Below are positions 4,625 through 10,489 of a stretch of 11,872 nt of DNA, piece by piece. This DNA is from Nocardioidaceae bacterium (lineage in GTDB: Bacteria > Actinomycetota > Actinomycetes > Propionibacteriales > Nocardioidaceae). Under the pieces are notes generated by a model. The model saw only the letters and a program-made list of their open reading frames with translations. It did not search any database and was not told where the DNA came from. The stretch lies in contig JAGQUE010000430.1 in NCBI GenBank assembly GCA_020438665.1, positions 1 to 11,872 on the forward strand. The letters run 5' to 3'. How positions within the stretch are numbered: the stretch's first letter is position 1; every line of letters starts with the position of its first letter. The translations under genes and the position numbers were made by a program.

Positions 4625-4655
4625 AGTCCAGGGCCTGACACGGTGTCAGGGTCAA
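4625..4655 (-). promoter_or_regulatory. MerR-type promoter and operator of the merR gene
   Basis: On the minus strand the -35 is TTGACC (4650-4655) and the -10 is TGGACT (4625-4630), separated by 19 bp, the over-long spacer typical of MerR-activated promoters. Inside it lies a perfect 17-bp palindrome, CCTGACAC-centre-GTGTCAGG (4634-4650). MerR proteins bind such a palindrome and untwist the spacer. The -35 overlaps the nadE stop codon. Autoregulation is the direct inference. Confidence 0.75.
4634..4650. repeat. 17-bp perfect palindrome (8-bp arms, 1-bp centre)
   Basis: CCTGACAC and its exact complement GTGTCAGG flank a single G. Its placement in a 19-bp promoter spacer before a merR gene marks it as the probable operator. 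The same word can be used to look for other members of this regulon. Confidence 0.85.
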
Positions 4656-6727
4656 GCGTCCTCGGGGATCTGGTCCTCGGGGATCTGGGCCAGCTCGTCG
4701 AGCCAGGCGGCCGGTCCGGCGTCGGACGGCATCCGCCAGTCGCCGCGGGGGCTCATCGTGCCGCCGGGGCTGACCTTGGGCCCGTTGGGCAGTGCGGACC
4801 GCTTGAACTGGCTGGCGAAGAAGCGGCGCACGAAGACGTCCAGCCAGTGGCGGATCTCGGCCAGCGAATAGGCCGACCGGCGGTCCTCGGGGAACCCTGG
4901 CGGCCATGCCCCCGTCGCCGCGTCGTGCCAGGCGTGCCAGGCGAGGAAGGCGATCTTGGTGGGCCGCATGCCCCACCGCAGCACGTGATAGAGGGTGAAG
5001 TCCTGCACGGCGTAGGGGCCGACGGTGTCCTCGGTGGCCTGCGGCCGGGCGCCCTCCTCGTGGGGCACGAGCTCGGGGGTGATCTCGGCCTCGACGATCT
5101 CGCGCAGGGCCCGGTTGGTGGCGTCCTCGAACTGCTCGGACGCGATCACCCAGCGGATGAGGTGCTGGATCAGCGTCTTGGGCACGCCGGCGTTGACGTT
5201 GTAGTGGGACATCTGGTCGCCCACGCCATAGGTGCACCACCCCAGCGCGAGCTCGGACAGGTCGCCGGTGCCGAGGACGATGCCGCCGCGGTGGTTGGCC
5301 AGCCGGAACAGGTAGTCGGTGCGCAGGCCCGCCTGGACATTCTCGAACGTGACGTCATAGACCGGCTCGCCGTCGGCGAACGGGTGCCCCAGGTCGGCGA
5401 GCAGCTGGCGCGCGGCGGGACGGATGTCGAGCTCCTCGAAGGTCACCCCGAGTGACGTCGCGAGCCGGGTGGCCCGGTCCTTGCTCTCGGATCCGGTGGC
5501 GAACCCCGGCATGGTGAACGCGTGGATGTCGGACCGGGGCCGGCCGAGCCTGTCGAGCGCCCGGGCGGCGACGATCAGGGCGTGGGTGGAGTCGAGTCCG
5601 CCGCTGACCCCGATGACGACCTTGGGCGAGCCGATCGCCCGCAGCCGCTGCTCCAGGCCCGACACCTGGATGTGGTAGGCCTCATAGCAGTCGAGGGCCA
5701 GTCGCTCGGGGTCGTCGGGCACGAACGGGAAGCGGTCGACGCGACGGCGCAGGCCGATGTCGGTCGCCGGGGGCTGGAGCTCGAAGCCCACCGTGCGGAA
5801 GGTCCGACCCTCCGCTTCGCCGACGGTCGTGATGCCGAGCGTGCGGCGGTTGTCGTCGAAGGTGCCCTGCCGCAGCCGCTCCTGGCGGATCCGGTCGAGG
5901 TCGACGTCGGCGACACTGCGCCGGGGACCATCGGGGAAGCGCTCGGTCTCGGCCAGCAGGTCGCCCAGCTCATAGACCATCGTCTGGCCGTCCCAGGACA
6001 GGTCGGTCGTCGACTCGCCAGGCCCGGCCGCCGTGTAGACATAGGCGGCACTGCAGCGGGCGCTGGCCGAGCGCACCATCAGCCGGCGGTCCTCGGCGCG
6101 GGCGATCGTGATCGGGCTGGCCGACAGGTTGACGAGCACGGTCGCACCGGCGAGAGCGGCCTCGGCGCTCGGCGGCACCGGGACCCACATGTCCTCACAG
6201 ATCTCGACATGCAGCCGCAGGCCCGGCACGTCCGCGGCCTCGAAGATCAGGTCGGGACCGAACGGCACCTCCTCGCCGACGAGATCGATCCACTCACCTC
6301 GACGGTCGTCGCCGGGCGCGAAGTGCCGTCGTTCATAGAACTCGCGATAGGTCGGCAGATAGGACTTCGGGGCCACACCCAGCACCGAGCCCCCCTGGAT
6401 GACGACAGCACAGTTGAGCAGCCGGTTGCCGACGACGATCGGGGCGCCCACCACCAGCACGGGCGTGAGCTCGGCCGAGGCCTCGACGATCCGCTCGATC
6501 GCCTCCTCGACGGCCCCGAGCAGGACGTCTTGGAGCAGCAGGTCGTCGATGGCATAGCCGCTGACACTGAGCTCGGGGAACACCGCGACCCCCACGCCCT
6601 CCTCGTGACAGGCGCGGGCCTCCGCCAGGATCGTCTCGGCGTTGGCCATCGGGTCCGCTGCCGCGACGGGGACGGTGCACGCCGCGACGCGCACGAAGCC
6701 TTGGGCATAGGCGGAGAAGAAGTCCAC
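4652..6727 (-). CDS. nadE: Glutamine-dependent NAD+ synthetase
   Basis: The last step of NAD+ synthesis: deamido-NAD+ is amidated using ATP and ammonia from glutamine. The 691-residue protein matches the two-domain M. tuberculosis type (about 679). The N-terminal nitrilase-fold glutaminase has its triad: E52 in VFPELS, K121 in [15 protein letters not shown] and C177 in VEICEDM. The C-terminal synthetase has the PP-loop SGGLDS at 375-380, then [18 protein letters not shown] and [13 protein letters not shown], and closes with [18 protein letters not shown]. The start is GTG 6727, followed by [16 protein letters not shown] as in the family, with GGAGG 8 nt upstream; the longer ATG 6778 would collide with the divergent gene. 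The 3' end carries a 15-bp in-frame tandem duplication. It is divergent from the phosphotransferase and followed by merR. Confidence 0.97.
4659..4688. repeat. 15-bp perfect tandem duplication at the nadE 3' end
   Basis: TCCTCGGGGATCTGG occurs twice in direct succession (4659-4673 and 4674-4688), encoding two copies of QIPED just before the final Ala and the stop. It keeps the frame and adds five residues to the tail. It looks like a recent slippage event beside the merR promoter. Confidence 0.9.
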
Positions 6728-6735
6728 GGCTGGAT

Positions 6736-6740
6736 CCTCC
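6736..6740 (-). promoter_or_regulatory. Shine-Dalgarno deciding the nadE start
   Basis: GGAGG on the minus strand, 8 nt before GTG 6727. It is the best Shine-Dalgarno in the window and fixes the GTG as the start. It shows that nadE mRNA has a leader, unlike its divergent neighbour. Confidence 0.8.
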
Positions 6741-6763
6741 CACGGCGCCGCGCTGCGTCGTCG

Positions 6764-6769
6764 TAGCCT
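6764..6769 (+). promoter_or_regulatory. Candidate leaderless promoter (-10 TAGCCT) for the phosphotransferase
   Basis: TAGCCT (TANNNT) is followed by 7 nt and ATG 6777. No Shine-Dalgarno precedes this ATG, consistent with a leaderless mRNA. The promoter lies in the 49-bp divergent gap shared with nadE. Confidence 0.5.
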
Positions 6770-6776
6770 GCCGGTC

Positions 6777-7703
6777 ATGCAGCACCCCCCGGTCGAGCCG
6801 TCGGACGCGGTGGTTCTCGACGCCGTACGACGGCACTGGTCGCCCGCGGTCGACGCGGTCCGCTATCTGCCGGTCGGTTTCGGTGCGCACCACTGGGCAG
6901 CGCTGGAGCAGGGTCGGGAACGGCTGTTCGTCACCCTCGACCTCGACTCGCCCCGACACACCCTGGCCTCGCTCGAGGGGGCCTATCGGGCCGGCGTCGC
7001 GCTGGCCGGCGGTGGCCTGGAGTTCCTGGTCGCACCAGTGCCGGCGAGCCCCGACGAGGTCACCGTGGCCGTGGCGGGCGGGCGGCTCTCCGTCACGCCC
7101 TGGGTCAGCGGGACCAGACCCGAGGACGGGAGCGCGGTGGCGCCGCTGGTGGCGCGACTCCATGCCGCTCCACCACCCCCCGACCTGCCGGTCTGGGCGC
7201 CCCTGGTCGGTCCCGACCTCCCCGATCGGCTCCGCGACCTGACCGCTGCGCCGTGGCGGGGCGGGCCGCACGGTGAGACCGCGCGCGTCCTGGTCGGCGA
7301 GGCCCTCGTGGCAGTCGCCCGATGGACCGCCGACTATCTGTCACTGGCAGCGCGGACCGACCCGACGACGTGGGTGCCGACCCACGGCGAGCCCGGGGTC
7401 CACAACCAGCTCATGACGACGGATGGCCGGCTGCTGCTCGTCGACCTCGAGTCGCTCAAGCTCGCTCCCCGGGAGCGCGACCTCGCGCCGCTGCTTCCAC
7501 TCGAGGCCTCCTTCCGGACGGCGTACGACGGGCCGCCGCCCGACGCCGACCTGCTGGCGATGTTCGACCTGGAGTGGCGGCTCGATGAGATCGGGCAGTA
7601 CGCCGCCTGGTTCGCGGGGCCACACGGTGACTCTCCGGACGACCGCACCGCGCTGGGCGGCCTGCGCGAGGAGCTGAGCCGGCCGGACCGGCCGACGCGC
7701 TGA
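6777..7703 (+). CDS. Phosphotransferase of the aminoglycoside/choline kinase (APH) fold
   Basis: A 308-residue kinase-like protein. The catalytic loop is HGEPGVHN (residues 203-210), with Glu205 where classical APH enzymes have the catalytic Asp (HGD), and Asn210 as the metal ligand. The DFG-equivalent aspartate is D223 in LVDLES, and PRERDL follows at 231-236 as in spectinomycin-kinase-like members. The N-lobe has GFGAHHW (34-40) and FVTLD (51-55), where a beta-3 lysine would be expected but Thr is seen. The substrate is unknown: a sugar, amine or drug hydroxyl are all possible, and nothing nearby indicates resistance. Pseudokinase behaviour cannot be excluded. ATG 6777 has no Shine-Dalgarno but has a TANNNT hexamer 7 nt upstream. 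It diverges from nadE by 49 bp and converges on filP with a 22-bp gap. Confidence 0.85.
   Translation: MQHPPVEPSDAVVLDAVRRHWSPAVDAVRYLPVGFGAHHWAALEQGRERLFVTLDLDSPRHTLASLEGAYRAGVALAGGGLEFLVAPVPASPDEVTVAVAGGRLSVTPWVSGTRPEDGSAVAPLVARLHAAPPPPDLPVWAPLVGPDLPDRLRDLTAAPWRGGPHGETARVLVGEALVAVARWTADYLSLAARTDPTTWVPTHGEPGVHNQLMTTDGRLLLVDLESLKLAPRERDLAPLLPLEASFRTAYDGPPPDADLLAMFDLEWRLDEIGQYAAWFAGPHGDSPDDRTALGGLREELSRPDRPTR
7680..7694. terminator. Inverted repeat near the convergent gene ends, possible terminator
   Basis: CGGCCGG-A-CCGGCCG is a perfect 7-bp inverted repeat inside the last codons of the phosphotransferase gene, about 32 nt beyond the filP stop. As RNA it can form a five-pair stem with a five-base loop. 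It could stop the filP transcript. There is no U-tract, so the evidence is weak. Confidence 0.25.
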
Positions 7704-7725: not shown

Positions 7726-8832
7726 TCAGCCCTGGTGGGCCGGCTCCCCGGCGTCGTGCTCGACCTCGGCGTCGAGCTCCGTCGGCTGGCCGTCCTCGGG
7801 CTGGGGCGGGACGTCATCCATCTCCCCCATCTCCCCGTCGGCCACCGGGGCGGTCACCGTGTCGGACTCGACTGGCCCGGCGACCTCGGCGACGTCGTTC
7901 TCACCCACGTCGTCGAGGGCCAACAGGCCGGCGGGTGAGACGTTGGTGAGGGTGGCGAGCATCTGGCGGACGTTGGCGAGCTGGGCGTTGATGCTGTCGC
8001 GGCGCTGGGCGGCGGCGGCCAGGGCACGGTCGGACTCGGCCGCCAGGCGGTCGGCGTGCGCCCGCGCCTGCGCGACGATCTCGGACGCCTCCTGCTGGGC
8101 GTCCTCGACCAGACGGCGGCCGCCGATCTCCGCGTCGTTGCGGATGCGCTGGGCCTCGTTGCGCGTCTGTTCGAGGTGAGCCTGAGCCTCGTCGAGCTGG
8201 CTGCGGGTCGTCTCGAACTGGGACGCGAACTCGCGCTCGACCCGGTCGCGCCGCTCGGCCAGCGTGGTCTCGAAGTCGGCCGCTGCCTGGGCCGCCTTGG
8301 CCTGCTGGGCCTCATAGAGCGCATCGGCCTCCGCTCGCCGGGCCTCGGCGTCGCGCTTGGCCTCCTCGTGGAGCTCGTCGGCTCGGCGATGGGCGTTGTC
8401 GACGAGGGACTTGGCCTCGGTGTCGGCGTCCTGGCGGCGCTGCTGGGCATAGGCGTCGGCCTCGGACCGCACGCGCTCGGCGGTCTGCTCGGCCTCACGC
8501 AGGCGGTCCTCGAAGTCGGTCTTGGCGTTGGCACGGATCTCCGCGGCCTCGTCGTCGGCAAGGCTCAGGATCTGGCCGACCCGCGAGCCGAGGTCGGCGA
8601 AGGTCGGTGCGGCCGTGGGGCCGGGCGCGTCCGCGGCCAGCGCCTGGGCGGTCTCCAGCTCGTGCACCCGCCCGGTCAGCTCGACGATGCGCTGTTGGCT
8701 GGCGCCGGCCTGCTTCATCAGGTCGGTGATGCGCTGGTCGACCTCGGTGGGTTCATAGCCTCGCCGCACGAGCCGGAAGGAGGAGTGGCCGGCCGGCTGG
8801 CCGAGGCTGTCGGGGGTGTTGTCGATGCTCAT
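7726..8832 (-). CDS. filP: FilP-like coiled-coil cytoskeletal protein with DivIVA-like N-terminal motif
   Basis: A 368-residue soluble protein. Residues 19-40, FRLVRRGYEPTEVDQRITDLM, form the DivIVA-type N-terminal motif seen in FilP. FADLGSRVGQILSLADDEA, EADALYEAQQAKAAQAAADF and the closing RRDSINAQLANVRQMLATL (277-295) agree with Streptomyces FilP as I remember it. Residues 100-297 are nearly continuous coiled coil rich in Ala, Glu, Arg and Gln. The last 70 or so residues are a tail with about 20 acidic residues and no Lys or Arg; S. coelicolor FilP is shorter, about 310. FilP forms filaments, binds DivIVA and stiffens growing cell poles. The start is ATG 8832, overlapping the upstream stop (ATGA), with GAGGA 6 nt before it. 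It is the second gene of an operon with the Scy-like protein. Confidence 0.85.
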   Translation of the reverse strand: MSIDNTPDSLGQPAGHSSFRLVRRGYEPTEVDQRITDLMKQAGASQQRIVELTGRVHELETAQALAADAPGPTAAPTFADLGSRVGQILSLADDEAAEIRANAKTDFEDRLREAEQTAERVRSEADAYAQQRRQDADTEAKSLVDNAHRRADELHEEAKRDAEARRAEADALYEAQQAKAAQAAADFETTLAERRDRVEREFASQFETTRSQLDEAQAHLEQTRNEAQRIRNDAEIGGRRLVEDAQQEASEIVAQARAHADRLAAESDRALAAAAQRRDSINAQLANVRQMLATLTNVSPAGLLALDDVGENDVAEVAGPVESDTVTAPVADGEMGEMDDVPPQPEDGQPTELDAEVEHDAGEPAHQG

Positions 8833-10259
8833 GGGGCGTCCTCGGGGGTGGGGGGTGTGGACGAACGGGAGACGAGCGGGTGCTCGGGCTCGGGAACCGC
8901 CAGGGCCGAGATGACGCCGGACAGCCCGCCCAGCTCCTCGACGATCGCGTCGCGGCGACGTTGGAGGCCCTCGAGCTCGACCCGGGCCGCGGCGACGAGG
9001 TCCTCGGCCTCGCGGGCGGTCTGCTCGCGCTGGCGAGCGGCCTCGATGCGCAGCTCGTCGGCCTGCTGGTGGGCGGCGCCGATGATCTGTTGGGCGTCGA
9101 GCTGGGCCCTGGTGACCTCGGCCGCGACCTGTTGACGCAGCGCCTGGGCACCCGCTTCGGCCTCCGCGATGCGGACGGCGGCCGTCTCGTGTGTGCCGGC
9201 GAGGTGGCGCTCGGCCTCCTCGCGGAGGACGGCAGCGTCGGCCCGAGCGCGCTCGCGGACGAGGTCGCCCTCCTGCTCGGCAGCCGCCAGGGCCTTGTGG
9301 CCGGCCTCCTCCAGCTCGACGGCGCGCTGCCGGGCCTCGTCCGCACGCTGGCGCAGCCGGTCGGCCGACCGGCTGATCGTGGCTTGGAGCTCACGCCGGC
9401 GCGCGCCCAGCGCCTGGGCGAGGTCGCGGTGGGCGGTGGCCCTGACCCGCTCGATCTCGGCGTGCGTGGCCGCGAGCAGGGAGGCGACGGTCGCGTTGGT
9501 CCACTCGGTCTGCTCGGCGGCCGCCGTGAGCTGACGGTCGGCCTCGGCGCGGGCGTGGGCGAGGTGTTCGTCGGCCTGACGCACGACCCGGGTGTGGTGG
9601 ACCTCGGCTGCCGAGCGCAGCTGGGCGGCCTCCGTGGTGGCCGCCGCGAGCGCGGCGGTCGCCGCTGCCTCTGCCTCGCTGCGCAGTCGGTTGACCTCCG
9701 ACTGGGCCTCCGCCAGCAGGACCTGGGCGGCGCGCTCGGCCTCGGCGCGTCGGGACCGCTCATGGTCCTCGAGCTCCGCGGCGCGCGCGGACTTGAGGGC
9801 GTCGGTCTCGGCGATGATCTGGTCGGCCTGCGCCCGGGCGGAGGCCACGATCTGCTCGGCGTAGCGCTCGGCCTCGTGGCGTTCCTGATCGGCCGCCATC
9901 CGCTCGACACCCGCCGCCGCACGGGCCTCGGCCAGCAGCTTCTCGCGCTCCTGCCCGGCCGTGTGCATCAACACCGCCGCCTGCTCACCGGCGTCGCGGA
10001 TCAGGGCCTGGCCCTGCTCCTTGGCCCGGGCGAGGTGGTCCTCGGCATCGCGGTTGTCGCGCTCCGCCGCCTGGTGGGCGGCCAGGGCCTCCTGGTGCAG
10101 CCGGGTCGCCTCACGTTCGAGCTCGTGGACCCTGTCGAGGGTCTCCTTGGCCTCCGCCTGGGCATGGGCGACCAGCTCGTCGGCGACCTGCTGCGCACGC
10201 TGGAGCGCAGCGCTCACGGTCGCGGTCGAGTCCGCGGATCCGCTCGTCTGCACGCTCAA
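8829..10259 (-). CDS. Scy-like long coiled-coil protein, compact form
   Basis: A 476-residue, almost wholly coiled-coil protein (about residues 15-455), Ala/Glu/Arg/Gln-rich, with no membrane segment or signal peptide. A short Pro/Ser/Thr-rich tail follows (PEPEHPLVSRSSTPPTPEDAP). Near the end, LQRRRDAIVEELGGLSGVISAL (432-453) recalls the terminal motif of the FilP-like neighbour. Position directly upstream of filP matches scy in Streptomyces, where Scy (about 1300 residues) is a polar scaffold recruiting DivIVA and FilP. This copy is about a third as long, so scy is withheld as a symbol. The start is TTG 10259 (then SVQTSGSAD) with GGAG 5 nt before it; the alternative is GTG 10253, 11 nt from GGAG. 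Other coiled-coil families could look alike, since heptad composition dominates similarity; gene order is the main support. Confidence 0.75.
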   Translation of the reverse strand: MSVQTSGSADSTATVSAALQRAQQVADELVAHAQAEAKETLDRVHELEREATRLHQEALAAHQAAERDNRDAEDHLARAKEQGQALIRDAGEQAAVLMHTAGQEREKLLAEARAAAGVERMAADQERHEAERYAEQIVASARAQADQIIAETDALKSARAAELEDHERSRRAEAERAAQVLLAEAQSEVNRLRSEAEAAATAALAAATTEAAQLRSAAEVHHTRVVRQADEHLAHARAEADRQLTAAAEQTEWTNATVASLLAATHAEIERVRATAHRDLAQALGARRRELQATISRSADRLRQRADEARQRAVELEEAGHKALAAAEQEGDLVRERARADAAVLREEAERHLAGTHETAAVRIAEAEAGAQALRQQVAAEVTRAQLDAQQIIGAAHQQADELRIEAARQREQTAREAEDLVAAARVELEGLQRRRDAIVEELGGLSGVISALAVPEPEHPLVSRSSTPPTPEDAP

Positions 10260-10489
10260 CAGCGCTCCGCCAGGTGATCCACCGGGACATCATTCCAGAC
10301 CTTCCTGAGCCCCACCAGGGAGACGCCGGAGTCGTTGCGCGCATGGGGACCAGCGGCCGGGGGACGTGACGCCGACCACATCCGTGGCGAGGGTGGGCTT
10401 TCCGACGGCTAGCGTTGGGCTCCGGTCCGGGGACTCCACCAGAGGAGCCTCGAGATGACGGCCCCGACGGGGCAGCAGGGAGCACCATC
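10260..10489. other. Divergent intergenic region between the Scy-like gene and panB
   Basis: This 230-bp stretch must hold the promoters of the scy-like/filP operon (minus) and panB (plus). On the plus strand TAGCGT at 10410-10415 is a possible panB -10. On the minus strand AATGAT near 10290 is a four-of-six match to a -10. No conserved reading frame, tRNA or riboswitch-like structure is evident. Confidence 0.5.
10410..10415 (+). promoter_or_regulatory. Candidate panB promoter (-10 TAGCGT)
   Basis: TAGCGT fits the TANNNT -10. It would give a leader of about 68 nt, consistent with panB having a Shine-Dalgarno (GGGAG at 10478-10482). No clear -35 is present. Confidence 0.3.

Follow-up and report, generated by a model that had tools for sequence, protein, structure and literature searches.

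What stands upstream of filP in actinobacteria outside the streptomycetes, and is it Scy? The published accounts disagree on Scy, as far as the consulted portions of them go. In one of them it is not conserved in other bacteria, while Nocardioides is included in the FilP family (PMC2680258). In another it is a protein with a DivIVA-like motif that is restricted to Streptomycetales and arose by duplication of FilP (PMC9858780). According to a third, certain other actinobacteria do have undoubted orthologues of Scy, which almost always lie beside filP and mostly occur in organisms with some propensity for mycelial growth; Nocardioides is given there as mycelial and sporulating (PMC4255298). Phenotypes of scy-filP deletion are described, in the portion consulted, for S. 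venezuelae (PMC11571769). The question is raised here by a contig of 11,872 nucleotides from a Nocardioidaceae bacterium, the whole of which is referred to as the window, and in which an initial annotation had proposed a minimal pair of Scy and FilP.

As proposed, two open reading frames on the minus strand form the pair: filP (7726..8832, 368 aa) and an upstream gene (8829..10259, 476 aa), with the stop of the latter and the start of the former sharing the four bases ATGA (8829..8832), an arrangement that would couple their translation. Judged by its sequence, the 368-residue protein is FilP, and it is an ordinary member of that family. It consists of a DivIVA-like head motif, RRGYEPTEVD (residues 23-32), an alanine-rich rod (approximately residues 75-298) with RRDSINAQL at residues 277-285, and a long acidic tail. 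Residues 24-32, RGYEPTEVD, fit the RGYDxxEVD pattern described in the consulted portion of PMC9858780 as a DivIVA-like motif near the N-terminus, except that the first D is replaced by E. In an alignment of 20 FilP sequences, R24, G25, Y26 and V31 are invariant, as are most residues of the ending RRDxIxxQLxNVRxML, so the head motif and the ending singled out in the initial annotation are features of the family rather than chance. The window protein matched 528 proteins at E ≤ 1e-3 (7996 scored), with P0017, P0020 and P0023 as its closest relatives. Streptomyces FilP sequences recovered the 368-aa protein as the best open reading frame of the window in four of four queries (198-207 bits), and the reverse search returned FilP as the best match in three of three Streptomyces loci. 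Two profile models matched below their cut-offs, with 22.5 bits for Pfam DivIVA (cut-off 28) and a weak 29.8 bits for the NCBIfam Scy model NF041483 (cut-off 1040). The window protein thus shares head motif, rod, ending and a reciprocal match with Streptomyces FilP (SCO5396 family), but its gene neighbourhood is unlike that in Streptomyces, where the open reading frames span 310-372 aa as compared to 368 aa here.

Two irregular forms of FilP were observed among its relatives. In P0016 (729 aa) a single frame joins the C-terminus of the upstream protein to the FilP head, which may be a gene fusion or result from a frameshift error. In L111 and L114, and also in G043, G062, G083 and G123, a second FilP-like open reading frame of 277-288 aa lies directly 3' of filP, giving this small clade the gene order partner, FilP, FilP2.

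The upstream partner, which starts with TTG, has no match in Pfam or NCBIfam at E ≤ 0.01. At least 14 homologues were found in a protein search (7998 candidates scored). Four of the 14 carry the precomputed Pfam accession PF28068, which is also assigned to some FilP relatives; rescanning of P0003, P0006 and P0015 against Pfam gave no match. The conserved core comprises 433 residues: it begins with RAQQVAD at residue 21 and closes with LSGVISAL, whose last residue is 453. A DivIVA-like motif is absent from the 476-aa frame and from the 60 in-frame codons upstream of it. An in-frame stop lies 11 codons before the TTG start, and a longer N-terminus hiding a head is thereby ruled out; the protein is referred to as headless below. 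In an AlphaFold2 model (mean pLDDT 74.6, pTM 0.21, 13 sequences), residues 14-261 and 269-451 are helical, and confidence drops at a break over residues 253-273 (9441..9503, minus strand), located at the conserved hinge motif AEQTEWT (residues 248-254). From the model and the conservation together, the partner is predicted to be a two-segment coiled-coil rod hinged mid-way. Its C-terminal cap, residues 434-456 (RRRDAIVEELGGLSGVISALAVP; 8892..8960, minus strand), resembles the ending of FilP.

The length of the rod is nearly constant. We aligned 84 partner sequences over the core from RAQQVAD to LSGVIxAL (73 from loci, including the window, and 11 database proteins), with the segment anchors taken from the alignment and not from regular expressions. 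The C-terminal segment from EQTEW to LSGVI has exactly 198 residues in 74 of the 84; it has 209 (+11) in all eight Kribbella sequences, and two database proteins have 205 and 194. The N-terminal segment has 227 residues in 49 of the 84, 249 (+22) in seven and 260 (+33) in one, and varies in the remaining sequences, where the N-terminal anchor is often unsure. The differences of 11, 22 and 33 residues correspond to one, two and three hendecads, with few independent events underlying them.

The coiled coil of Scy and FilP is reportedly built on a 51-residue periodicity of four hendecads and one heptad, a description that is said to go back to Walshaw in 2010. The expected pitch is then 51/14, or 3.643. 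Hydrophobic periods peaked at 3.635 in the rods of both window proteins and at 3.64-3.645 in four Scy proteins, in each case above shuffled controls. For the partner rod, the power at the peak was 2.02, as compared to 0.93 for the 95% level of the shuffles, 0.18 at 3.5 and 0.20 at 11/3, which is the 51-residue type of periodicity that characterizes the Scy/FilP class. Lags of 11, 18, 22, 29, 40 and 51 were among its top self-similarity lags, as in two Scy proteins (these lags were scored without a shuffled control). The FilP rod, of 224 residues, had a power of 2.14 at 51/14 and 1.08 at 11/3 and is not separable from plain hendecads, and lag 51 was not raised in its self-similarity. The periodicity anticipated for both proteins was accordingly recovered in the partner but not distinguished in FilP.

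Is the location of the pair informative about its function? The initial annotation placed it between nadE and panB. Both genes are as named, nadE at 4652-6778 on the minus strand and panB on the plus strand, with an open reading frame from 10415 and a more likely start at ATG 10490, as in the related locus L156; but an APH/kinase-like gene lies between nadE and filP (6777-7703, plus strand). This gene scores 66 bits against an aminoglycoside phosphotransferase model (cut-off 675), which is not a resistance call, and a 48%-identical gene occupies the same place in L156. In the nadE stretches of 18 relatives, panB was present in all 18 and filP in none, and FilP is encoded at another place in six of the 18 genomes (G017, G068, G073, G088, G125, G136). 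L156 has nadE, the kinase gene and panB without the pair, with 97 bases from the kinase stop to the panB start; in its genome, G039, all 39 candidates were scored and none was FilP. Conversely, none of 84 other filP stretches matched nadE, panB or the kinase gene; three of them contained a glutamine synthetase, 35% identical. The setting between nadE and panB is thus peculiar to the window genome among the loci checked. As nadE and panB are kept without the pair in 18 of 18 relatives, the pair has presumably moved or been gained in the window, and the housekeeping setting therefore says little about its function; a functional link to nadE or panB is ruled out. It is likely, then, that relocation or transfer brought the pair to a place without functional meaning, which is compatible with any of the explanations of the partner itself considered below.

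Relatives of the locus were collected by scanning contigs with a FilP alignment (A1), as a single-protein query gave none, and partners were counted by profile because regular expressions undercounted them. Within the family of Aeromicrobium phragmitis, which we take to be Nocardioidaceae, 53 of the 55 filP loci read have a headless partner upstream (51 intact, L196 and L213 partial); the other two are L097, truncated at the end of its contig, and L212, which has no partner match. None of the 51 intact partners contains the head motif. The wider class contributed 19 filP loci, among which the partner is headless in 12 (two cut by contig ends) and headed, at 608-706 aa, in L127, L131 and L133; L134 has a Scy of the Streptomyces type, and the other three (L129, L130 and L132) fall clearly into none of these groups. 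A further set consisted of named filP loci, of which 80 were kept from at least 558 relatives and 73 counted after seven duplicates had been dropped. In 61 of the 73 the upstream gene encodes a protein of 1130-1692 aa with an RGY-type head, as identified by regular expression, although L066, at the least, appears to be an open reading frame in the wrong frame. These 61 loci are from Streptomyces and Kitasatospora, plus one labelled Saccharothrix. Ten named loci, eight from Kribbella, one from Jatrophihabitans and one from Pseudonocardiales, have a headless partner, and two are cut by a contig end (L021) or broken (L076). The locus labelled Saccharothrix sp. ST-888 (L062) encodes a Scy of 1521 aa that ends like those of the Kitasatospora loci, and its label may be wrong.

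The two genes also occur together across genomes. Among 149 genomes drawn evenly from the family of Aeromicrobium phragmitis, FilP was found in at least 23 (E ≤ 1e-20) and the partner in at least 21 (E ≤ 1e-25), both being lower bounds as up to 14 FilP and up to 10 partner candidates were scored per genome. All 21 partner genomes are among the 23 with FilP, and by coordinates filP is directly downstream in 21 of 21. In the two others, the locus lies at a contig end (G068) or the match is weak and partial (G144). When 22 negative genomes were searched again with all candidates scored, no match at E ≤ 1e-5 emerged in 21, and the remaining one had a partial match of 36 bits. Gene order in the family, which the initial annotation had wished to see compared, thus bears out the pairing of partner and filP but not the setting between nadE and panB. 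When 341 genomes of the family (that of G017) were searched at the DNA level, with one or two candidates scored per genome, at least 61 gave any match. FilP is apparently missing in most of this family although relatives have it; its distribution appears patchy, which suggests repeated loss or transfer.

These results show that the partner belongs to a family of FilP-linked rods, being a headless variant that is conserved at the place taken by Scy in Streptomyces, and that the short form is the standard one. The idea of a uniquely minimal scaffold is ruled out by the presence of the headless form in 53 of 55 family loci and in other actinobacteria. Among the titles and abstract beginnings consulted in the open literature, we found no account of a headless FilP partner.

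We compared the partner with Scy in both directions. Four Scy queries gave at best 9.8 bits against the window partner, which in turn had no match at E 1e-3 in three Streptomyces loci and was not matched by NF041483 at E ≤ 0.01; partners from related genomes reached only 19-26 bits on that model. As far as sequence goes, the partner is not Scy. Like Scy (NF041483, SCO5397), it is directly upstream of filP, has a pitch near 3.64 and has an ending in register with the RR-x-x-I-type ending of Scy. It differs in having no DivIVA-like head, in its length of 476 aa, about one third of that of Scy, whose rod exceeds 1000 residues, and in overlapping filP, whereas the two open reading frames are 184 bases apart in the Streptomyces locus L007. 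The proposal that the 476-residue protein is the Scy partner is therefore borne out for the upstream position, the pitch and a weak likeness of the cap, but not for the head, the match to NF041483 or a reciprocal match. Nor is a second, full-length Scy encoded elsewhere: in a search of ten genomes with NF041483, only the Streptomyces genome exceeded the cut-off, as compared to none of the six genomes with a headless partner.

Profile comparisons provide a more distant view, against a high coiled-coil background, as the partner profile scored higher against its own reverse (102.3) than against FilP (96.6; reversed 56.5 and 59.7). Against Scy it scored 133.5 (reversed 83.4), with the best stretch not at the Scy end. 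Residues 89-606 of the headed partners of L127, L131 and L133, taken as a profile of three, align with the whole headless partner at a score of 114, as compared to 59.6 and 62.9 reversed; their score against Scy, 126 (reversed 44.0), exceeds that against the headless form. These headed proteins of approximately 600-700 aa thus occupy the same position and have a rod that aligns end to end with the headless one, but they carry an RGY head motif, and the EQTEW hinge is absent from their alignment. The C-terminal 100 partner columns scored 55.7 against FilP, as compared to 28.0 reversed and 38.9 for the best internal window. Against the Scy end they scored 40.9, in register, about what the best window inside Scy gives (40.4). 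Nothing corresponding to the hinge motif was seen in the alignments of the headed L131 group or of Scy. Taken together, position and pitch and, weakly, the C-terminal cap tie the partner to Scy, of which it is probably a distant homologue.

On balance we favour the reading that FilP is accompanied by an overlapping, headless rod in the position of Scy, which would act in the FilP network and is not Scy itself. FilP would dimerise, dock by its DivIVA-like head on DivIVA at poles or septa and build filaments. The headless partner would be recruited by FilP through the helical pitch and C-terminal cap that the two have in common, and would serve as a fixed-length spacer or cross-linker of approximately 64 nm (433 residues × 0.148 nm), hinged mid-way; in streptomycetes, this position holds the much longer, headed Scy. 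Co-assembly with FilP, a shared localisation and the spacer or cross-linker function are inferred from the constant pairing, the pitch and the fixed length.

The partner could instead be a true Scy orthologue that has lost the DivIVA-like head and two thirds of the rod. It has the same position upstream of filP and the same pitch, and two headless loci have, like scy, crotonyl-CoA reductase or thiolase genes around them. However, a headless core near 430 residues is the rule in the family and is found also in the Jatrophihabitans and Pseudonocardiales loci, while all forms above 1000 aa that we saw came from Streptomyces or Kitasatospora loci or the one labelled Saccharothrix, and the NCBIfam Scy model gives the window protein no match. 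Since the short form is widespread and the long form restricted, the change may have been growth and not loss, and we regard a truncated orthologue as unlikely.

We consider it equally improbable that the partner is an unrelated coiled coil, coupled to filP and converged on an alanine-rich rod of the same pitch, a view consistent with the failed reciprocal match to Scy, the hinge motif that Scy and the headed partners do not have, the coiled-coil background of the profiles and the 15 of 17 headless loci outside a scy-type neighbourhood, but at odds with the collinear, full-length match to the headed partners (114 as compared to 60-63 reversed) and with the cap in common with FilP (55.7 as compared to at most 38.9 in controls). 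The outcomes that the initial annotation had named as speaking against the pair were not observed: the match of FilP is reciprocal, and the partner gave no match to an unrelated coiled-coil family.

With the headless rod as a FilP partner distinct from Scy, the neighbouring genes bear on its age. An acetyl-CoA acetyltransferase (thiolase) gene adjoins filP in L117 (headless), L131 (headed) and L007 (Streptomyces), a MeaB gene is located beside filP in L131 and L007, and a crotonyl-CoA reductase gene is near filP in L117, L131 and L121 (headless). Crotonyl-CoA carboxylase/reductase is placed near scy and some filP genes in the consulted portion of PMC9858780. Clustering adds L127 and L129 to the loci with this scy-type neighbourhood; a cluster in L111 resembling crotonyl-CoA reductase was rejected as another oxidoreductase. 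Because two headless loci and some headed ones have scy-type neighbours, the two-gene arrangement may be older than the streptomycetes, against one published view. Further than this, it is conceivable, though we hold it to be rather less than an even chance, that a module of rod and FilP is ancient in actinobacteria and that Scy is its streptomycete elaboration, approximately threefold longer, and not a late copy of FilP; we keep this reading tentative because only two of the 17 headless loci compared (L117 and L121) share the scy neighbourhood.

A conserved headless partner in the position of Scy would explain the disagreement over Scy. The survey in PMC9858780, to judge from the portion consulted, required the motif, and headless partners would therefore be missed by it. 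If the module is indeed ancient, what surveys requiring a head motif would miss is a headless partner of fixed length. Such a partner would give a simpler polar scaffold, and the near-constant length of the rod makes a role as spacer testable.

A separate observation concerns the divergent intergenic region between the partner gene and panB (10260..10489), which contains a conserved element upstream of panB at 10426-10454. It has the form TCCGGGGACTC-loop-GGAGCC-N-CGAG and follows a TAGC(C/G)T box, with a loop of seven bases in the window and six in L156. In Rfam there was a single match, to a microRNA and below threshold, which we attribute to chance. By a simple motif search, the element precedes panB in eight of the 18 relatives, and exactly one copy per genome was found in 25 of the 149 genomes, as compared to none for the backward control pattern. 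It is possibly a leader RNA or an operator for pantothenate synthesis.
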